Assembly: GCA_022410635.1 (NCBI GenBank)
Contig: JAJVDF010001742.1
Coordinates: 17,220 to 81,219, forward strand
Origin: Tretioscincus oriximinensis
Taxonomy: Eukaryota; Chordata; Lepidosauria; Squamata; Gymnophthalmidae
Direction: 5' to 3'
Length of the DNA: 64,000 nt
The translations under genes were made by a program, and so were the position numbers. Positions within the stretch are counted from its first letter, which is position 1. The number at the start of each line of letters is the position of its first letter. Under the pieces are notes generated by a model. The model made no database searches, was not told the origin of the DNA, and was given only the letters and a program-made list of their open reading frames with translations. Shown here piece by piece: positions 16,090 to 59,483 of this stretch.

Positions 16090-16979
16090 GAGGTTTCTTT
16101 CTTTTTAGTAAAATAAAATTTTATTGAAATTTTGTAAAAATATAAAATTTTGTAAAATTTTCCAGAAATCTGTAAGCTATGAAGGATGAATAAGAAATAT
16201 TTTGCAAGATGAAGTCTAACTGATTAACAGGAACACCTGCACTGAGAATTATTTCACTGTTCCCCAACTGTTCCATAATCGTCCTGAAATTTTCCACAAG
16301 CTTGCCTTGTGTTCTGCCCCTTTTGTGTTCCACATGCCTAACATGCTCCTCACATGCTATGAATGAGCAAAAAATTAAATATGAGTTTTTCCCCACCCAA
16401 TTGTGATCAATGGGGCAGATTCTCTATCAATGGCAGAAAAACTCAGGTTTATGATATCTGTCACAATCACTGAGAAGCTTTGTCATCTTCCGGCAGGACC
16501 AAGAGCTAAGGGAAAGAGTTTCCAATTTCAGATATAGTACATGTTGAACCTGGGAATGTTCTCAGAATTCAAAGTCTATGTGGGTGAGGTCTTCCAAACC
16601 AAATGTTTAATTCAAATACTTCCTGAGCTCCTGACTATGTTATTTCCACTCCAAGAGACTATGTTTTATTTGACTGGTGCTGGGTTGCTTATACAGTGTC
16701 TCTGGACTTGGCACAGGAGATTTTGAACTTGTCCCCAGAAGCAGAAGGTATTTTGTGGTATTACGCAATTTGAACTTCCCGTGAAAATGTCCCCACCCAT
16801 TTGCATATGATTTCAGTAAGGGCTGTCTTTGCTTTAGCCAAGAAATACTATTAAACCCAAAATTTGTGGAAAGATCCCTTTGATGGATTTCAACTCTAAC
16901 GATACCCATTATTTTGATCTTCAGGCAAAATGACTGCAGGAGGTATAGTCTAAAGGGGAAAGCACTGCTTTGAGACTCT
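16090..16979 (-). mobile_element. Possible retroelement remnant with 3' AATAAA end
   Basis: Minus-strand frames 16993-16640 (117 codons) and 16396-16121 (91 codons) are followed by CAATAAAATTTTATT and an A-rich end near 16095. The arrangement looks like the decayed 3' part of a retroelement. I recognise no domain, so the family is open; it could also be an old processed copy of a host gene. Confidence 0.35.
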
Positions 16980-17086
16980 GGCTGCATACACACGACGACT
17001 TAAAAACCGTTATAAAGCTATATTCCGGAATATTGCAGATGCGTGTCCAGGCACACCAAACTTGTTTATTCCGTGACCAGTGCCCC

Positions 17087-17680
17087 TAGGGCTGCCATAT
17101 CTTGGCAGCCCAAAACCAGGACGGGGGTAGGGTGGGGGTGCGTGCACGCACGTGCACACACAAGGACAGGCGCGCGAGCGCACACACGGATGCTTGTGGT
17201 GAGACAGGCAGAACCTCTATTCTGCCTGTCTCACCACAAGCGTCTGTGTGCACGCATGTGTGTGCGTAGCTGCTGCAATGCTGGAGGCCGGGTTTCATGC
17301 CTGCTGTCAGGCAAAGCGCGCCAACCCGCCTCCAGCGGAGCAAAAACGCCTGGGTTTCTGACAGGAGAGCAGAACCTGTCACAAGCACAGGCGTTTTTGC
17401 TCCGCTGGAGGCGGGTTGCCGCGCTTTGCCTGACAGCAGGCATGAAACCCCGCCTCCAGCATTGGAGCAGCTACGGCAGACTCCGAGATTCCTTCCAGAA
17501 CCCCGGAAAGCGTTGCTCATGCTGAAGATATCAGCTCTGACGGCTCCTTTTCCTTTAAAATCCTGCATTTTTATATTCCCTGATGCAGCATCGGGGAATG
17601 TAAAAATACGGGAATTTTATCTTAAAACCCGGAGGGGACGATATTTTAGTCCCCCAAACCAGGATTGTATGGCAACCCTA
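17087..17680. mobile_element. hAT-like MITE (family G) with large hairpin
   Basis: Ends TAGGGCTGCCATA and TATGGCAACCCTA. The 8-bp flanks AGTGCCCC / AGCGCCCC match at seven of eight positions. Interior holds two hairpins (17189-17244; 17266-17474). The opposed 160-codon frames on both strands arise from the palindrome and are not genes. Confidence 0.85.
17266..17474. repeat. Long hairpin, ~87-bp arms
   Basis: Left arm GTAGCTGCTGCAATGCTGG to AAAAACGCCTG; right arm CAGGCGTTTTTGC to GGAGCAGCTAC. The loop is about 35 nt. Few mismatches, so a transcript would form a long double strand. Confidence 0.9.
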
Positions 17681-18000
17681 AGCGCCCCAGTTCCGTAATA
17701 TCGCTCGCTGAGGGCAGTCAGAGAATGTTTGCCAGAGCCACTAGAAACTACTGCTGTGTTCTCGGTTGTTTTAACCTCTTGTGCCTAATTTGTGCACACG
17801 CGCATGCTCGGGAGAGGAGGGGGGTTGGCTGCGAGAGGGCGGAGGTTCTCCGGAACGATGACGCAATATCCCAGCAATAGTTTATTCTGGGAAAAATGGT
17901 GTTTATTGCGGGATGACTGCTGAAAAATGCTTAACCCGTGTGCTGGACACGTCCTCTTCTCACTCCGATCAAGGTACAAACATGCTGTGTGCACGCAGCC

Positions 18001-18282
18001 TCTGTTTTAAAGGTTGAGGACTATGAGCCAAACAAACAATCTCTTAGCCTTTGGATGTGAAATGAACCATCAATGCTCAGTGAAAACAGCCATCAACAAC
18101 TTCATAGAAGGACCACATCCAGATTTTCCTTTTTCCACTGACTTGAGGAGTATCAATGAACACAGGAGGCAAAATGTTCAGAATGATTTCCTGCCATCTC
18201 AGGTACTGTTAGGCCCAAAATAGCCAATTTCCAGGGCCATTTTTACTCTTACACTAAACCAGGAAAGATTGCAGTGATTCTT
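18001..18282 (+). repeat. 282-bp segment, inverted copy at 23657-23938
   Basis: Reads identically, base for base by eye, to the reverse complement of 23657-23938. Here it is the native right flank of the family P element. It holds an open frame (18014-18223) lying between an acceptor-like TCTGTTTTAAAG and a donor-like CTCAG/GTACTG; see the candidate exon entry. Confidence 0.9.
18013..18202 (+). other. Candidate exon-like open segment
   Basis: 190 bp preceded by CCTCTGTTTTAAAG and followed by GTACTG. The open frame includes FGCEMNHQCSVKTAINNF and DLRSINEHRRQNVQNDFL, with balanced composition unlike the surrounding repeats. No family recognised. The upstream pyrimidine stretch spans the transposon junction, so a functional exon is doubtful. 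Could be a fossil exon or chance. Confidence 0.25.
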
Positions 18283-18404
18283 AAGCTGCCCCTTGGCTTC
18301 CAAGCAACATCTCCCCACCCCAGTTACATATAGAAAATTCTCATCACCCCCTTAACGTGCTCCCAGGAGGGAATCGCTGGGCTAGTGCCTCTAGCAGAGT
18401 TTTT

Positions 18405-18710
18405 CATAGAATCATAGAATCATAGAGTTGGAAGGGACCTCCAGGGCCATGGGGTCCAACCCTCTGCTCAATGCAGGATTCATTGAACCATCCCAGACAG
18501 ATGACTGCCCAGTCTCTGTTTGACGACTTCCAGCGAAGGCGAACTCACCACCTCCTGCGGCAAACTGTTCCACTGGTTGATCACCCTGACTGTTAGGAGG
18601 TTTTTTCTGATATCTAATCTAAATCTCCTCCCTTGCAGTTTCATTCCATTGTTTCTAGTCCTTCCATGTGCCAAAGAGAACAGTGATGATCCCTCTGCTC
18701 TGTGGCAGCC
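18405..18710 (-). mobile_element. CR1 LINE 3' end
   Basis: AGAATCATAGAATCATAGAG microsatellite end, then CTCCAGGGCCATGGGG. Minus frame FRLDIRKNLLTVRVINQWNS, then LPQEVVSSPSLEV. Confidence 0.88.
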
Positions 18711-19108
18711 TTGTGTTTTTATCAGCTTTGTGTTTTTATCTACACAAAAAGTGATGGACTAGGATTTGGTGCCATAACCATATGATCTGAGCATTACTCA
18801 GACTGTGAAGGGTCTTCAGACACAATGTCCCATGGATCAGGATGCTGCTCAAGACCCAGCCTTCTTTTTAGCAAATTCCAGAGCAGCCGCAGCTAGAAAC
18901 GTCCAAGGTCGGCAACTTTTAGTTCTGGTCTTAGAAATCTGTGCTGAATTGGGCGATCTGTTCTTGGACTAGACCTCTGCTAGTGCACTGCAGTATGTGA
19001 GAGTCTTGGATTCCAAAAGATGTTATCATTGGGCACTTTACTCCTGTGATGGGTCCACAGTTTCGACTCCAATCAGCTTTTCATAGCCATTCAAATGCAC
19101 TCTCAATT
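18711..19108. other. Unassigned sequence
   Basis: No recognisable repeat or coding region. Confidence 0.4.
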
Positions 19109-19109
19109 T

Positions 19110-19190
19110 TTGAGAGTTTATTTATTTATTTATACTTATACCCCACCCATACCCAAAATTTCAGGGCAGCCAACAATATAAATAGTATAA
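19110..19190 (-). mobile_element. Sauria SINE / Bov-B 3' tail scrap
   Basis: TTTATTTATTTATTTATACT then ACCCCACCCATACCCAAAAT and TCAGGGCAGCCAAC: only the Bov-B-like terminal segment is present. Confidence 0.65.
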
Positions 19191-19311
19191 AATTAACATT
19201 GCAAAACAGGAACAAACAGTATCTGGAGGTGGAGGTTAAAAACCAGCCTTCCTTCAACCAAAGGCCAGGTGGAAGAACTTCTAAAAGCACCTCGAGGAGA
19301 AAACAATTCCA

Positions 19312-19560
19312 TTTTCGCAGTCCCAAACCGGGGTAAATAATATTCATGCTTATTTGCATATTCATAAATATGCAGATTACCCACCTACATGCATTCCCTT
19401 CTGAAATTCCCACCCTGTGTGAGAATTTTTGGAGTGCATGAGAATTTCTATTTTTTACTGAGTGGAGGGTGTCTTCAGGAGCTGGCCCCGGTTGCCAGAA
19501 CACCCTAGTGGTGGTGCAGTGAATTTCTTTTTAAAAAAATATTTTTTTTGAAGTGTGTAG
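19312..19560 (-). mobile_element. hAT-like MITE (family T), partial
   Basis: CCCAAACCGGGGTAAATAAT, octamer palindrome variant at 19352-19377, GTGCATGAGAATTTC units and AGGAGCTGGCCCCGGTTGCC. Both TIRs are missing. Confidence 0.8.
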
Positions 19561-19835
19561 GAATAAGAGACATAATAGACGATCTGTTTCCTATTCCCCA
19601 AACCACTTTCTTAGTCAAACCTGGTCATGGCTATGAAACCTTTTCCTTTATTACGGTGCGTTTCCAGTTTTTTAATGGCATGTGCTTGAGCTGAGTAATA
19701 TAGCAGTTCTGTTCTGGCATAGGATCAAGGCTCTGTGTAAATCTTTCTCAAATGAGTAAATAACGCAAAGTAATTCCTCTGCAGATTTAAAGATAATGTA
19801 CAAAACCACAAAAAACTCCACACTACCGGATTCAG
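19561..19835. other. Unassigned sequence
   Basis: No recognisable feature. Confidence 0.4.
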
Positions 19836-20701
19836 GAAGACGGGCCACATTTTCTGAGGCCCAAATCTGAGGGGTAGTTAATATTCATGCTAATTTGCAT
19901 ATTCATGAATATGTAAATCATACACCAACATGCATACCCCTCCAAAATCCCTGCCTGAGAAAATGGCAAAGCGCCCAATAATTTTTGGAAGCACGTGAGA
20001 ATTTTTGACACCTGCGAGAATTTTACAAACTGCACAACAAATGTGCATTTTAATTTTTTTTTTACTGAGCTGTATTTTTTACATGGCTACCCCTCCGAAG
20101 TCCCTGTCCGAGAAACCTGCAAAGCGTGTGAGAATTTTTTGAAGTGTGCAAGAATTTTTTGAGGGGTGCAAGAAATTTGCAAAAAAAAAAAATTACTTTG
20201 GGGTGGGTGCCTTCAGGAGCTGGTTCTGGTTGCCAGAGCCCCCTAGTGCAGGCACGGATAGCTTAATCACTTAGGAATTCGCCTCTCAGCTGGGCAATGG
20301 GGTTTCGAAGCCCTGTGTGGGACGTGGGGAGGGCTGAGCACCTTCCACTAGCCTGCAGCTCTAGCCAGCCCAGCTATTCGAAAGCAAGAATTGCAAGAAA
20401 TTGCAACTGACTGCAAGTAGATACATGGGAACCACCACAGCCTGGTGGGGAAGATCGAATGTCAGCCTTCGGGCAAAATATATCCTTGTAAGCCGCTTTG
20501 AGTCCCTTTGAAAGGTGAGAAAAGCGGGGTATAAGAACCAAGTTCTTCTTCTTCTTCTAGTGGTGGTGCACTAATTATTTTTAAAATATATATATATATA
20601 TTTTCCTCAGCAAAAAATGGGGAAATCGCCCCCCTCCGAGGGCAGGGTAGACACCCCAAAACCATTTCCCCTCCCAAAAAAAGGGTCATCAGGTCAACCT
20701 A
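19836..20701 (-). mobile_element. hAT-like MITE (family T), long form with SINE inside
   Basis: Left end degenerate (CCACATTTTCTGAGGCCC), right end GGGTCATCAGGTCAACCTA. Palindrome variant at 19893-19918, repeated GTGTGAGAATTTTTTGAA units, and a duplicated internal block. A tRNA-derived SINE is inserted at 20249-20556. Confidence 0.82.
20249..20556 (+). mobile_element. tRNA-derived SINE with 6-bp TSD
   Basis: Head CAGGCACGGATAGCTTAATC, B box GGGGTTTCGAAGCCCTG, body GCCAGCCCAGCTATTCG, end GTATAAGAACCAAGTTC plus (TTC)n. Flanked by CTAGTG at 20243-20248 and 20557-20562, inside the family T MITE. Confidence 0.85.
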
Positions 20702-21400
20702 TAGTAACAGGTTCAGGACTGGCACAGTATGATACCATGAGACTTTCCTATAGTGAGTTGAAAACATCAAGGATTTCACGAAAAATGAAATTATATTCTC
20801 AGTCTGACTCAGTTCTGACTCAGAACTCTCAAGCCAACACTGTAACTCATATGAAGTCATCTGTTCACTGTTTCCCCCTCTCCCTTCAAGATCATATTCC
20901 CTACGGTTGCTTTTGACTTTACTGCCCCTGAGGATATGAGCTAATATTAACATCAGCACTTTGTAACTCTTAGTAGTTGCTCAATAATTGTAGGGTAGCT
21001 GTCAGGTATCCTTTTTGAGGAGTTGTTTAATCATTATGAACGCCCCCTCTGATAAATAAAGGAGATAATTCCTCTTTAATTGCAATGGAGGAAAATTGTT
21101 CGCTACCCAAATGACAGCATTGGCAGGAATGCAGATGATGAGATAAGCCTGGCCTGGTTGGTGATGACATCACTAGGGAGGGAACTGATTGGTTGGTTGT
21201 GTCTATGGCAAAGACTTTCAGCCCTGCCATTGCAGCTGGTGGGAACTTGGTGGGGCTCCGGCTCAGAAGGCTCAAATCTGCCAACTGGAGGATCCTCATG
21301 CGAAAGATTTGCTTCCTCATGTCTAACTACAGGATGAGATCATAGAGATAAGCAGAGCACAGAATGGAATTAGTCTAGAATGATCTTGTAAGAAACATGC
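20702..21400. other. Unassigned sequence
   Basis: Contains GTGATGACATCACTAGG (a CRE-like dyad at about 21162) between two GGTTGG blocks. The minus frame 21320-21027 has no recognised motif. No repeat assignment. Confidence 0.35.
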
Positions 21401-21407
21401 AAGTAGG

Positions 21408-22005
21408 TGTAACCAAGGGTATAAATAGCTACTAGGGTGGATCATTTGGTGCTGCCTCCGGGATGGAGCAACAGGCAGGACTCCTAAAATACCATTTGCA
21501 GGGAGTCACGAACAGGTGCATACAGGGCTGTATTTAGGCAAAATATAGATAGCGGTGGTGCTAAGAAGAGCAAGTACAAAAGAGAGTTACAAGGATGGTG
21601 AGTGGTCTGGAAACCATGTCCTATGAGGAACGGTTAAAGGATCTGGGGATGTTTAGTCTGCAAAAGAGAAGACTGAGAGGAGACTTGATAGCTGTCTACA
21701 AATATCTGAAGGGCTTTTCACAGAGCAGAGGGATCAACATTGTTCTCATGGGCACATGGAAGGACTAGAAACAATGGAATGAAACTGCAGATTAGATATC
21801 AGAAAAAACTTCCTAACAGTCAGGGTGATAAACCAGTGGAACAGTTTGCCACAGGGGGTGGTGAGTTCGCCTTCCCTGGAAGTTTTCAAACAGAGGCTGG
21901 ACTGTCATCTGTCTGGGATGGTTTAATGAATCCTGCATCGAGCAGGGGGTTGGACCCGATGACCCTGGAGGTCCCTTCCGAGTCTATGATTCTATGATTC
22001 TACTG
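21408..22005 (+). mobile_element. Two CR1-type LINE 3' ends
   Basis: 21408-21522 is a TTCTTATG-group 3' UTR scrap (CCAAGGGTATAAATAGCTAC). 21565-22003 is an ATTCTATG-group CR1 with GTTACAAGGATGGTGAGTGG, a broken C-terminus and the end TCTATGATTCTATGATTCTA. Confidence 0.85.
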
Positions 22006-22088
22006 TAATTAGTGCTGAGTATCAGACTGCTTACCGAAAGCAAAAGGTAACATGGGTTTTAAAAATGGTTCCACGATTGCTTCTCATA

Positions 22089-22440
22089 GGCAGGCATGGA
22101 TAACTCAGTTGCTACGGAAACAGCCTCTCACCTGGGAGGTAGCATTTTGGAGACCTGTGTGGGACGTGGGGAGAGCTGAGCACCTTCCACTAGCCTGTAG
22201 CTCTAGCCAATCCAGCTATTCAAAAGCAAGAATTGCAGGAAATTGCAACTGACTGCAAGTAGATACATGGGAACTACCACAGCCTGGTGGGGAAGATAGA
22301 ATGTCAGCCTTCGGGCAAAATATATCCTTGCAAGCCGCTTTGAGTCCCTTTGAAAGGTGAGAAAAGCAGGGAAGAAGAACCCAGTTCTTGTTGTTGTTGT
22401 TGTTGTTCTTCTTCTTCTTCTCCTCCACCTCCTCCTCCTC
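22089..22440 (+). mobile_element. tRNA-derived SINE plus (TTG)n(TTC)n(CTC)n tail
   Basis: Head GGCAGGCATGGATAACTCAG through GCCTTCGGGCAAAATATATC and AAGAACCCAGTTCTTG, then trinucleotide repeats to about 22440. Frames across the tail are low complexity. Confidence 0.85.
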
Positions 22441-22599
22441 TGCCAGAGCAATTATGGACTCTGGAGGCGACTTTTGGTTGCCAAAAGCCGCCAAAGCTTC
22501 CACCAACTTCTTTTACTATTTTTCAGACATTTAGCCTCACATTTAGAAGGCAAAATCCTCACCTGTTCTCGACGCCCTGAAAATGGCATTTTACAAGTA

Positions 22600-22978
22600 C
22601 TGCCTGTGGCTCCATCCTGGAGGCAGTTTCAAAAGATCCACCCTAGTAGCTATTTATACCCTTGGTGTCCATAAACCTACCTAATCCTGTCTTAAAGCTA
22701 TCCAGAGTTTATCCACCTACCACTGCCTCTTTTTTCACACAAAGGCCGATGATCATTGGGTGAAAAAATACTTTCCTTTGCCCTCACTCTTCTGTCCCTC
22801 AGCTTCAAGGCATGGCCCCTGGACCTAGTGTTGTGTGACAAAGAAAACATCTTTTCTCTATTCACCTTATCCAACCCATGCATGATTTTATGCTCCATTC
22901 AGATCACCTCTCAAACGGCATCTTTCAAGGCTGAAGAGGTTCAGATGTTGCAGCCTGGTTTCATAAGGGACGTTTCAT
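22600..22978 (-). mobile_element. CR1-type LINE 3' part
   Basis: CTAGTAGCTATTTATACCCT, then the reverse of the usual C-terminus (GGCCGATGATCATTGGGTGA), then ATTCAGATCACCTCTC. Frames broken. Confidence 0.83.
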
Positions 22979-23614
22979 AGAAGTGAGGATTTTTTTTACC
23001 AGGTAACAGCTGCAACTCTGAGCAAGAAGGGGTCACTTTTTCACACCCACGAGGTTTACTTACCGGCATGGAAGTCACATCGTGATGACTCAGCTCCATG
23101 TGTTAATGGAATTTTCACAGTGCACCTGGGGAAAAGGTGCTTTGCCCCAGGATACTGTTTAGCTGATGTTTTGTGAAATCACACATTTCCTCAGCACTTA
23201 CTTCCCAGTTTGCCTTCTCTTCTCTTCCACAGGCTTTCTAAGGTTTGTTGCGAAAGGATAAATGTAGGTATACACAGACTCGCAATTGGGTTATTCCAGA
23301 TTTTACAACCATTGCAGTTTTTACCCTGTTGTCCGAACAGGTCCAAAGAGGGGTAGAACAATGAGGTGCAGGTGGTGTAGGGGTGCCAGATACCTCCCCA
23401 AATTGGAGTCATACACAGTTTACATACAGAGATTGCAGGGTATACCGAAGCACGATAACGGTTTCGTTATAGTGGGACAAACAATACAGGAACATGTAGA
23501 TGGCAAGGGATTGCAGGATTTGTTTGATGATTCTGTTTTATTTGGCATGGCAAATAAAGAGGGCAATAAAACCCACACTGAAGCAAACATTGATGTGTTT
23601 GCTCTTTTGACCTG
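22979..23614. other. Unassigned; includes MITE-like scrap
   Basis: 22988-23060 (GATTTTTTTTACCAGG, CAGCTGCAACTC, TTTCACACCCAC) resembles the centre of the foldback at 52397-52535. The rest is unassigned; the 134-codon frame at 23286 shows no recognised motif. Confidence 0.35.
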
Positions 23615-24366
23615 GGCTGCGTGCACACAGCATATTTCTACCTCGATCGGAGTGAGAAGAATCACTGCAATCTTTCCTGGTTTAGTGTAAGAGTAAAAAT
23701 GGCCCTGGAAATTGGCTATTTTGGGCCTAACAGTACCTGAGATGGCAGGAAATCATTCTGAACATTTTGCCTCCTGTGTTCATTGATACTCCTCAAGTCA
23801 GTGGAAAAAGGAAAATCTGGATGTGGTCCTTCTATGAAGTTGTTGATGGCTGTTTTCACTGAGCATTGATGGTTCATTTCACATCCAAAGGCTAAGAGAT
23901 TGTTTGTTTGGCTCATAGTCCTCAACCTTTAAAACAGAGGCTGCGTGCACACAGCATGTTTGTACCTCGATCGGAGTGAGAAGAGGACGTGTCCAGCACA
24001 CGGGTTAAGCATTTTTCAGCAGTCATCCCGCAATAAACACCATTTTTCCCAGAATAAACTATTGCTGGGATATTGCGTCATCGTTCCAGAGAACCTCCGC
24101 CCTCTCGCAGCCAACCCCCCTCCTCTCCCGAGCATGCGCGTGTGCACAAATTAGGCACAAGAGGTTAAAACAACCGAGAACACAGCAGTAGTTTCTAGTG
24201 GCTCTGGCAAACATTCTCTGACTGCCCTGCCCCGAGATCAGTGAGCAATATTACGGAACTGGGGCCCTGGTCACAGAATATACAGGTTTGGTGCGCATGG
24301 ACACGCGATTGCTATGAATATAGCTTTATAGCGGTTTTTAGGTTGTTGGGTCATATGCACGGAGCC
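23615..24366 (+). mobile_element. Family P DNA element, chimeric inverted copy
   Basis: Order: an end fragment 23615-23659 (GGCTGCGTGCACACAGCATA, CGATCGGAGTGAG), then 282 bp identical in reverse to 18001-18282, then a complete-looking element 23939-24366 starting again with GGCTGCGTGCACACAGCATG and ending TCATATGCACGGAGCC. About 290 bp of element next to the flank copy differ from 17711-18000 by only two bases that I see, while the remaining portion is clearly diverged. Confidence 0.85.
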
Positions 24367-25399
24367 TTGGTACATACAAGACGGCAAAAGTGCAATCCAT
24401 GTCCTTTTAGACAGGCCATGAGAGTCTTTTGCAGTTCGGTTGATGGGATGGCAAGAAGGCAGGAAAGCCCATACAGATGGCAAGACAGCATCACCAGCGG
24501 GAGAGTTGGCTGTCCAATAGAGAAGTGGGGAAATCAGGACTTGGAAGGTTGCATCCAATCAATGTGATTATTTCACGATTAGCACAAGGGTTGTGAGTCT
24601 TTTCCTCCAATCCCTGGATCCCACAGGCTTTTGGATGGAAGCTCCATGAGTGGGAATCCAAATAGGAAAATGTTGGTTTTTAAGTCCGTAAGGAAAAGTG
24701 GCAAGGAAAGCTATAATGGTGATTCCAGGTTTGGGGGTTCGGGGGTCAGCCGATGATGTGTGGCAATGAGAAGGTTCTTCTGCCTATTTACCTGAAAACT
24801 ACATGAAGATCGGTTCAGGAACGAAGATTTTACGGGAAGCCTGTAAAAACTACAGCTGGAACAAGCTCTACCCTTTAAGCCAAATTGTGGACAAAGATGC
24901 ATCCAAACCTTGTCCAGTAATCAATTTAACACTTGTTACATCTTAAAGGTAAAATACTCAGGAGGAGGAACTGTGAACAGCTTCTAGTGCTGTCCTATTG
25001 GGTCTAAGCTTTCAAAGCTAACATTGAGATGGCGGGTCACCCACAGAGACACATTGGAATGGATTGTGAGGTCTGTGGAGTTGACGTAAGTAGGCGTACC
25101 ATGCTGCAGACTCCTAGGCAAATGGGTGTCCCTGAGGGTTCTCAGGGCTTGCATCTGATGTATTTAAATGGAGAATCATAGTTTAAATAGGTAAAAAATT
25201 GAAACTTTGGCTAAGAAGCTGGGAGCATGGTTTACATGGTCTGGGGAAGGTAGGAGTTACTTCAGGACACCTGAGTCCAGGTTGCTCAAGCCAATTGGCA
25301 TTTAGTGGTTTGAAGGCGCAAGGAGCCCCAGGCAAAGGCCATCCATAGTCTGAGTATTACTTGCCTTTTCCCGGGGATTATTCCAGGGTGGGATGGTGG
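24367..25399. other. Unassigned sequence
   Basis: About 1 kb without recognised repeat, RNA gene or credible coding frame. Confidence 0.4.
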
Positions 25400-27998: not shown

Positions 27999-28897
27999 GG
28001 CTGTGTTCACACAGCTATTTTATTCCTCAGTTGTAGCGACATGAGGAAGGTCGGGGCACACGTGTTAAGCATGTTTCAGCAATCCTTCCGCAATAAATGC
28101 CATTTATCCCAGAATAAACTATTGCTGGGATAATCAGGCATCATTGTGGAGAACCTCTGAAATCTCGTAGCCACACACACCCCTTCCTCTCCCACGTGAA
28201 CATGATTAGTGCGAGAGACAGGAGGGGAGAGATGGCAGGAGGAAGCGCCACCTCCTTGCTTCGGCAGAGAAATCTGCCCGCCTTTTCCTAAGCCCAGGCT
28301 GCCCTCCGCCTGCTTTTGGGGATTGCTATCTGGAGATCGTCACTGTCAAATGGTTTGGCTGAGGTAAGGAGGAGGAGGTGAGGAGGTTGACAGGACGTCT
28401 GTCAATGTTCCTCTTCGTTTCGCCAAGCTGATCTCCAGGCAGCAGCCCCCGAAAGCAGGTGGAGGGCTGGGTGGGCTTAGGAAAAGGCTTCTCGTGTCAC
28501 ACAGCCGGCTCCGCTGCGTTGCTGCGGCTGTGCCCTCCTTCCAGTCAGCCCTCCGTCTGCTTTTGGGGGCTGCTCTGTGGAGATCGGTTCAGTGAAACAA
28601 GGAGGAACATTGACAGACATCCTGTCAACCTCCCCACCTTGTCCTCCCTCAGCCGAACCATTTGACAGCGCCGATCTCCAGGCAGCAGCCCCCGAGAGCA
28701 GGCGGAGGGCTGGCTGGAAGGAGGGCACAGCCGAAGCAAAACGGCAGAGCCAGCTGGGTATGACGAGAATTCAAGAATACGTGTGCACAGACACACCATT
28801 GCATATTCTGGAATATAGCTTTGTGGTGTGAAGGGCATTGGCTATATTCCAGAATATAGCTTCATTTCGGTTTTTAGCTTGTTGTGTGAACGCAGCC
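27999..28897. mobile_element. Family P DNA element with two internal hairpins
   Basis: GGCTGTGTTCACACAGC left end, GTGTGAACGCAGCC right end. Contains CCGCAATAAATGCC and AATAAACTATTGCTGGGAT, then two long inverted repeats (28281-28487 and 28526-28732). Opposed frames on both strands follow from the palindromes. 899 bp, no transposase seen. Confidence 0.85.
28281..28732. repeat. Pair of long hairpins
   Basis: First: arms about 40 bp at 28281-28321 and 28448-28487. Second: arms about 62 bp at 28526-28587 and 28671-28732. The two hairpins are themselves related (both contain CCTCCGxCTGCTTTTGGGG). Confidence 0.85.
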
Positions 28898-30874: not shown

Positions 30875-31628
30875 GGCTGCATTCACACAATGAGCTAAAA
30901 ACCGGAATAAAGGTATATTCCAGAGTATAGAAATTGCATGTCTGTGCACATCACAACGCTATATTCCGGAATATAGCAATCTCGTGCACAAAGGGCCCCC
31001 TGCCTGCTTTCAGGAGCTGCTGCTGCCATCGCTGGAGGATCGTTTGCCTCCTCCTTGAAGCCAATCTAGCAGCCCCAGAAAGGTCTGGCTAGAGGAAATT
31101 CTGCCGAAGCAAAGAGGCGGCAGAGACGACCACGTTCTGCTGGCCCCATCCATACGGAGCCTAGTTCTGGGTAACATTTTGGGACATTTTGGCATGTGGA
31201 TGGCCAAGCTCTCTGCCTCCTCTTTGCTTCGAAAGAATTTCCTAACGCAATCTGTGCCTCGGAATAGGAGCCTGCCAACCCATTGGGCCTGCTATAGTCT
31301 GCACTAGCATGTGGTTGGCAGGCTCCTATTCCGAGGAACAGATTGGCTCCCTGTGGATGCAGCCTGTCAGTGCAGTGCAGTCCTTTTTGACAGATACTGC
31401 TGCCTTTTGTGCACACGCTAGAAGACAGTGGATGGCTGCAAGAGGACAGAGGTTTGCCACGAGAAAACGGAGATTCTCTGGAATGATGTCTGAATATCCC
31501 AGCAATAGTTTATTCTAAGGTAAATGGCATTTATAGTGAGACAACTGCTGAAAGACATTTAACGCATGTGCCAGAACCTCCCTCATTTCACCCCGAATGA
31601 GTAAGAAAATAGCTGTGTGCAAGCAGCC
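30875..31628. mobile_element. Family P DNA element with TAA TSD
   Basis: GGCTGCATTCACACAATGAG left end, GTGTGCAAGCAGCC right end, flanked by TAA on both sides (30872-30874, 31629-31631). Contains GGAATAAAGGTATATTCCAG and CCCAGCAATAGTTTATTC. A family F foldback sits inside at about 31228-31360. Confidence 0.88.
31228..31360. repeat. Foldback element family F inside family P
   Basis: GCCTCGGAATAGGAGCCTGCC and, in return, GGCAGGCTCCTATTCCGAGG with GTCTGCACTAGCATGTGG. The arms are near perfect over the outer 20 bases. Confidence 0.8.
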
Positions 31629-33052: not shown

Positions 33053-33363
33053 AGCAGGCACGGATAGCTCAGTTGCTAAGGAATCCGTCTCTCACCTGGG
33101 AGATGGGGTTTGGAAGCCCTGTGTCGAACATGGGGAGGGCTGAGCCCCTTCCACTAGCCTGTAGCTCTAGCCATCCCAGCTATTCGAAAGCATGAATTGC
33201 AAGAAATTGCAACTGACTACAAGTAGATACATGGGAACCACCAGAGTCTGGTGGGGAAGGAAGAATGTCAGCCTTCGGGCAAAATACCCTTGTAAGCCGC
33301 TTTGAGTCCCTTTGAAAGGTGAGAAAAAGCGGCGTATAAGAACCCAGTTCTTCTTCTTCTCCT
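33053..33363 (+). mobile_element. tRNA-derived SINE, full length
   Basis: AGCAGGCACGGATAGCTCAG head (A box), GGGGTTTGGAAGCCCTG (B-box region), GAACCCAGTTCTTCTTCT end. The best copy of this family in the window. Confidence 0.88.
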
Positions 33364-33598
33364 CATATAGGCTTCTGAATTTTTTTAAAAAAAATGCATT
33401 TAAAATTCTTCGAATGGCCCCTCTGCTCTATCCCTCCCAGCGCTTACGAATCCATCATTGTAGCATTGGCACTGGGAAGTCCAACACCCCAAGAGCAGCA
33501 GGAGTCGAGTGGGCAGAGAACTTGCTTGGTCCACTGCGATGTCAGCAGATGCAATGGTTCCACCATCTGGTTTTTCCAACTCTAGAAAGAGGAACATG

Positions 33599-47749: not shown

Positions 47750-48180
47750 TGTCCCAGGAAGAAGAGGAAGAAGAATCATAGAATCATAGAGTTGGAAGGG
47801 ACCTCCAGGGTCATTGGGTCCAACCCCCTGCTCGATGCAGGATTCCAGAAGAAGAAGAAGAAGGGGGAGAAGGAGGAGGAGAAGGAGGAGAAAGAGGAGA
47901 AGGAGGAGAAGAAGGAGAAGAAGGAGAAGAACTGGGTTCTTATACCCCGCTTTTCTCACCTCTCAAAGGGTCTCAAAGCGGCTTACAAGGATATTTTGCC
48001 CGAAGGGCTGACATTCTATCTTCCCCACCAGACTCTGGTGGTTCCCATGTATCTACTTGCAGTCAGTTGCAATTTCTTGCAATTCATGCTTTCGAATAGC
48101 TTGGTTGGGTAGAGCTACAGGCTAGTGGAAGATGCTCAGCCCTCCCCACGTCCCACACAGGGCTTCGAAACCCCATCACC
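47750..48180 (-). mobile_element. tRNA-type SINE with (GAA/GGA)n tail and CR1 scrap
   Basis: 47945-48180 is the SINE in reverse (ATACCCCGCTTTTCTCACC to GGGCTTCGAAACCCC). 47850-47935 is a GAAGAAG/GGAGGAG tail. 47775-47849 is a CR1 3' end (AGAATCATAGAATCATAGAG) sitting within the purine tract. Frames here are low complexity. Confidence 0.85.
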
Positions 48181-56639: not shown

Positions 56640-56850
56640 CCAGGCACACGTGCTAAGCGCTTTTCAGTAGTCGGCCCGCAATAAACACCTTATTTTCCCA
56701 GAATAAACTATTGCTCAGATATCTGGAGAACCCCCTTACTCTTGCGAGCATATGCGTGTGCGCAAATTAGACGTGGGATGTTAAAACAATCGAGAACGCA
56801 GTGTTGTTTCTATTGGCTGTTGAGAGTTAAAAAAAAGGATTCTTGGGCTG
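56640..56850 (+). mobile_element. Family P DNA element, fragment
   Basis: CCAGGCACACGTGCTAAGCG, CCCGCAATAAACACC, AGAATAAACTATTGCTCAG and CAATCGAGAACGCAGTG match the centre of 59076-59483. Both TIRs absent. Confidence 0.78.
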
Positions 56851-59075: not shown

Positions 59076-59483
59076 AGCTGCGTGGACACAGTATATTTCT
59101 ATCTCGATTGGAGCGAGATGAGGAAGACTCCAGCACACGGGTTACGTGTTTTTGAGCAGTCGTCCCGCAGTAAACGCCATGTAACCCAGAACAAACTATT
59201 GCTGGGATATTCAGGCATCGTTCCGGAGAGCCCCCATCCTCTCGCGTCTGTGGCAGCATGCAGGCATGTGCACAAATTAGACGCAGGAGGATCAAACAAC
59301 CGAGAACACGACAGTTGTTTCCATAGGCTGCTGTGAGTAAAAACAAAAAGAGCCTTGGGCTGCATGCGACGAGCTTGAGGCATTGGCCATGGAATAGAGA
59401 CATTTCGTGTGCACAGACACGCGATTGCTATATTCCAGAATATAACTTTATACCGGTTTTTACATCGTGGTGCGCACACAGCC
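59076..59483 (+). mobile_element. Family P DNA element
   Basis: AGCTGCGTGGACACAGTATA left end, GTGCGCACACAGCC right end. Includes CGATTGGAGCGAGATGAGG, CAAACTATTGCTGGGATATT and GCTATATTCCAGAATATAAC. About 408 bp. Flanks ATA / TTA are not an exact TSD. Confidence 0.83.

Follow-up and report, generated by a model that had tools for sequence, protein, structure and literature searches.

The duplication-dependent strand annealing (DDSA) model, which reportedly goes back to Fiston-Lavier et al. in 2007, concerns repair between copies of a repeat. In this model, a broken repeat is mended with an ectopic copy of it as template, and adjacent sequence becomes duplicated (PMC3276153, PMC3420103). A second described kind is the repair-mediated duplication (RD), of which Pace, Sen, Batzer and Feschotte reported in 2009 824 proximal human cases, copied from within 5 kb and up to 619 bp long, as well as cases in other mammals, chicken and zebrafish (PMC2671141). 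According to the same source, the inspected RD breakpoints carry microhomology of 2-9 nt, a deletion or filler, and the proximal RDs, whose 5-kb cut is called ad hoc, are without polyA and are attributed to synthesis-dependent strand annealing (PMC2671141). For transposons that enclose host DNA, repair or conversion from an ectopic sequence is one capture route proposed for Mutator-like elements (MULEs) (PMC4858842), and a plant review of 2026 describes aberrant excision in closely spaced insertions for Pack-CACTA elements, adding that another, undiscovered route may exist for unlinked genes (PMC13317346). Here we analysed a window of 64,000 nucleotides (the whole stretch, from contig JAJVDF010001742.1 of Tretioscincus oriximinensis), in which an old, non-coding, non-autonomous DNA transposon resembling a miniature inverted-repeat transposable element (MITE) is present in two copies about 5.4 kb apart and inverted to each other. 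One of them encloses 282 bp of the host DNA that flanks the other.

Comparison of 16501-18600 with 23301-24900 by BLAST returned an inverted, gap-free match of 572 bp between 17711-18282 on the plus strand and 23657-24228 on the minus strand, with 2 mismatches (99.65% identity). The remaining three matches were shorter element stretches, and the outer flanks of the two loci did not match each other in this comparison. The tract is made up of 290 bp of the element and 282 bp beyond the element end, and its two copies are separated by 5374 bp edge to edge (18282 to 23657). A sequence-only reading, made by eye, had claimed identity over the 282 bp and two differences in about 290 bp of adjoining element; indeed, we counted 0 and 2 differences, respectively. 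Both differences (17851/24088 and 17971/23968) are CpG transitions in the element part, which holds all 15 CpGs of the tract, so the lack of differences in the flank is no contrast by itself. Self-comparison of the window yielded 447 non-self matches, among which the 572-bp pair had the highest identity of those of at least 100 bp (runner-up, 95.3% over 169 bp) and was the only one to share more than 20 bp with the 282-bp flank; no further match to the 282 bp was found in the window, a more sensitive search included. Given this top identity and unique flank match, the pair clearly exceeds chance and is apparently younger than the window's other repeat pairs of that length. That the 282 bp come from an extended version of the family's element, or are a repeat of their own, is highly unlikely as judged from the window: only this one pair of the 447 overlaps them, the other family copies in the window do not match them, and their junction with the element coincides exactly with the target-site duplication (TSD) of the plus copy. 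Family consensus, which the sequence-only reading had itself named as a competing account of the 282 bp, was thus rejected within the window. An assembly or chimera artefact, also foreseen there as a duplicated assembly of one locus, is still less credible; as judged from the assembled sequence, there is no match between the outer flanks of the two loci, and two CpG differences separate the copies, one state being private to the plus copy among six element ends.

Table 1. Positions of the two transposon copies and of their proposed parts (numbered from the first base of the window).
Feature	Position	Strand	Remarks
MITE-like element, plus copy, proposed donor	16980..18000	+	TSD TCT 3/3 at 16977-16979 and 18001-18003
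hAT-like nested insert in plus copy, 594 bp	17087..17680		Terminal inverted repeat (TIR) TAGGGCTGCCAT/TAGGGTTGCCAT; TSD AGTGCCCC/AGCGCCCC, 7/8
Element part of proposed donor tract, 290 bp	17711..18000	+	2 differences to 23939-24228
Native host flank, presumed template, 282 bp	18001..18282	+	100% identical to 23657-23938 reversed
Proposed recipient element between its own outer ends	23615..24366	-	Flanks CTG and TTG, 2/3
Probable surviving original outer end of recipient, 43-46 bp	23615..23660	-	A and C where donor has G and G
Overlap AAGA/TCTT at probable rejoining point	23657..23660		4 bp; 1 bp if recipient originally had T at 23658
Host flank, presumed copy, 282 bp	23657..23938	-	Identical to 18001-18282 reversed
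Presumed copy of element part, with second, inner element end	23939..24228	-	2 differences to 17711-18000
Apparently unconverted far part of recipient	24229..24366	-	Diverged, in register with donor; first ~10 bases not in plus copy

The two loci differ in a way that gives the copying a direction. The plus copy has two ends, GGCTGCATACAC and GGCTGCGTGCAC read inwards, and lies between a perfect TCT duplication, as claimed before (Table 1). The inverted copy has three ends, namely an outer end at 23615-23660, an inner end at 23939 and a far end at 24366, in agreement with the earlier claim of a second element end beyond the 282 bp, which we take further as the recipient's surviving outer end. 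The outer end is flanked by CTG, which agrees with the TTG of the far end at 2 of 3 positions, whereas the inner end is flanked by AGA, which is the TCT of the plus copy in reverse and matches the far-end TTG at none; near-matching flanks are thus found in the inverted copy only at its outer ends. For comparison, the window holds further family copies with both ends at 59077-59483, 27999-28897 and 30875-31628, and a fragment at about 56644-56818. At two positions, the outer end shares A and C with the copy at 59077, and the inner end and the plus copy both have G and G (T and A in the copy at 27999, T and C in that at 30875-31628). Judging by these flank matches and base states, the recipient most likely retained its original outer end and received the inner end and the 282 bp from the plus copy. 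The plus-copy TSD, the outer-end states shared with the copy at 59077 and the confinement of near-matching flanks to the outer ends together point from the plus to the inverted copy. The reverse, with the inverted locus as source and the plus locus as receiver of the element end and flank, could be entertained since the 572 bp by itself carries no direction, but it does not account for TCT on either side of the plus copy and leaves the additional outer end at 23615-23660 with its different states unexplained; we rejected it as very improbable on these grounds. In addition, the T at 17971 (in element orientation) is private to the plus copy and the five other ends have C, suggesting that the plus copy probably changed there after the event. 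At 17851, the plus-copy base is found in the copies at 59077 and 27999 and the inverted-copy base in that at 30875-31628, and the ancestral state is not firm.

The two edges of the tract in the inverted copy are of different kinds. At the near edge, identity in sliding windows falls from 100% to 58-85%, with 45% in the final window, which extends into the host flanks, so that uniform identity over the element is excluded and the divergence of the far part, seen by eye before, is borne out. Beyond the tract, BLAST aligned 106 columns with 12 mismatches and 6 gap openings (80.2%); a second alignment gave 13/104 mismatches and 17 gap columns, five nested-insert bases included, which differs from 2/290 in the element part of the tract (Fisher p = 1e-6). 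Between the nested insert and the tract, 3/28 positions differ, beside a 10-base indel. The element goes on in register beyond 24228, which argues that the near side was guided by homology. A simple nested insertion was rejected, since the joint near 24228 is in register and the recipient bases about 46-290 bp from the end are gone. Next to this edge, within 24228-24238, the inverted copy carries 10 bases with no counterpart in the plus copy. Their placement depends on the alignment; they could be a subfamily difference or repair filler, and the copy at 59077 is too different there to classify them. On the donor side, the near edge at 17711 lies 30 bp from the nested insert, where homology breaks off. 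If the insert was already present, donor homology would amount to about 320 bp, of which the tract covers 290. At the far joint, the donor flank and the recipient end both carry AAGA, that is, TCTT in the other orientation (23657-23660), and no polyA or polyT of 5 or more was found at the ends of the 282-bp insert. The overlap at this joint is therefore not the 3-base CTT of the sequence-only reading but 4 bp, which falls to 1 bp should the recipient have carried T at 23658.

We propose, with a probability of roughly three in four, that these features arose by one-sided ectopic repair synthesis from the plus copy to the inverted copy, closed by end joining at an overlap of 1-4 bp. A break would have occurred within the inverted copy at 43-46 bp from one of its ends, and the 3' end on the 24229 side, where the in-register joint is seen, would have paired with the homologous plus copy by strand invasion. 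Synthesis would then have run through the end of the plus copy into the host DNA beyond, of which 282 bp are found copied at the inverted locus, and donor sequence would have replaced the element part almost as far as the nested insert of the donor, which breaks the homology. Finally, the new strand would have been released from its template and end-joined to the other broken end, either at 4 bp of microhomology or at 1 bp. A transposase break exactly at the element end was rejected as the starting point, the broken end being 43-46 bp inside. What the sequence supports is the identity of the donor, the direction and the nature of the two sides, one in register and one end-joined; the break, the strand invasion and the enzymes are what we infer from it. 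The earlier proposal of repair by copying through the end of the plus copy therefore stands in its direction, its homology-guided near side and its run-through into the flank; its break is a presumed one, and its microhomology is likely but not certain.

The same product could come from a replication template switch akin to fork stalling and template switching or microhomology-mediated break-induced replication (FoSTeS/MMBIR), in which a nascent strand stalled in the inverted copy would have continued on the plus copy for 572 bp and then returned through microhomology, all without a two-ended break. We regard this as the main rival, if a rather unlikely one. It is consistent with the cis arrangement of the inverted copies at a distance of about 5.4 kb, with the 1-4 bp overlap at one joint, and with diverged homology and 10 extra bases at the other. 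Against it, about 244 bp of the element in the recipient, from 46 to 290 bp inside its end, were replaced, which is more easily explained by a gap or conversion, though not decisively.

Several points weigh against the repair reading as a whole. In 3 of 3 other family copies the base at the position of 23658 is T, and with a T in the recipient the overlap would shrink to 1 bp; the estimate that an overlap of at least 4 bp arises at about 1.6% (~0.016) of random joints is valid only if the recipient had A. An A there is plausible, not proven, because only 3 of 46 positions differ between the outer end of the recipient and the plus copy. The near joint could have been end-joined too, given the 10 extra bases beside it. 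Classical strand invasion works poorly between copies that differ by about 12% and have about 320 bp in common. The 2/3 match of the outer TSD is weak, with a chance expectation of 10/64, and the state before the event is a reconstruction from this one window.

The event probably took place fairly recently. No difference was found at about 542 non-CpG sites of the tract. If substitution rates of 0.8-2.2e-9 per site per year are assumed, the upper 95% bound on the age of the event is about 1.3-3.5 My, the lower figure going with the faster rate.

In outline, the case seems to belong to the RD/DDSA kind already described. As in RDs, a transposable element (TE) is interrupted by a short copy of nearby chromosomal DNA. 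RDs are delimited by at least 50 bp of non-TE DNA within a TE and by exactly one other copy in the genome, more than 50 bp away (PMC2671141); here 282 bp, non-TE as judged from the window, lie between 23615-23660 and 23939-24366, with one other copy in the window. At 5374 bp the donor falls just outside the proximal class, and the breakpoints show AAGA (4 or 1 bp), a possible filler at the near edge and no polyA/T, in keeping with the microhomology, deletion or filler of the RDs described. Unlike in those RDs, a sister TE appears to have provided the homology that guided one side here, and the copied flank consequently adjoins converted element. The structure and polarity of the locus also agree with DDSA as outlined in its sources, that is, with a presumed break in a repeat, an ectopic template of the same repeat and a duplicated flank. 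The flank is only 282 bp, in contrast to fly means of 3.1 and 2.1 kb (PMC3420103), and, unlike in the DDSA examples given there, the repeats are a pair of small MITEs in inverted orientation. Moreover, the inverted copy resembles Pack-type elements in that host DNA is enclosed between the termini of one TIR element, with outer ends at 23615 and 24366, but differs from Pack-CACTA as reviewed (PMC13317346) in that the flank of a sister element was apparently copied and an internal third end was left. Among the literature matches listed for one-sided invasion or transposon template switching none was close, and among those listed for repair-mediated duplication none was a closer published case by title and start of abstract, by which no absence from print is claimed.

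The locus may, tentatively, illustrate a route by which TIR transposons capture host DNA in an animal genome, in which mending from a sister copy overshoots the element end and the flank becomes enclosed by the recipient's termini. If true, a genome-wide class of copies with a third, internal element end beside captured DNA would be predicted, and about 320 bp of homology with a divergence of about 12% would suffice for capture. Such a three-ended class, if it exists, would make this a testable route for host-DNA capture by DNA transposons. The event is a single one that is unusually easy to read, its donor, direction, both joints and an age bound being obtained from one 64-kb window. As a single, linked case it mainly confirms described repair models, and no second copy of the composite element was found in the window, nor any sign that the product had moved.

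As to the identity of the transposon, the 3-bp flanks of the family are TCT/TCT at the plus copy, CTG/TTG at the inverted copy, ATA/TTA at 59077, TAT/TGT at 27999 and TAA/TAA at 30875-31628, which fits a 3-bp TSD with an AT-rich lean. PIF/Harbinger elements have a TSD of TWA, and sister groups CWG or TNA (PMC4482050). Set against these, the flanks make a PIF/Harbinger-like MITE a likely candidate. No Pfam family was found at E 0.001 in 4 of at least 25 stop-to-stop open reading frames of at least 130 aa, in a search not aimed at a transposase, and no Rfam match was found at gathering thresholds. In addition to what the sequence-only reading had described, the plus copy is interrupted by the nested insert of Table 1, whose TIR begins TAGGG and which we take to be of the hAT superfamily. 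This insert contains near-palindromes, with 101-bp arms at 17265-17365 and 17375-17475 (94%) and 36-bp arms at 17178-17213 and 17220-17255 (89%).

The spacer between the two MITE copies contains further repeats. At 18407-18704 and 21719-22002 lie two inverted 3' ends, 92-94% alike, which we presume to be CR1-like, and through these the spacer could fold on itself. The many CR1-like repeat ends of the window would be in keeping with a lineage of reptiles or birds. A 107-bp inverted pair at 21412-21518 and 22560-22666, 87% complementary and about 1 kb apart with other repeats enclosed, possibly represents the ends of another DNA transposon. Three copies of what is presumably a short interspersed element (SINE), 92-94% alike, lie in the window at 20297-20558, 33102-33364 and 47915-48177, the first of which ends in a TTC microsatellite.

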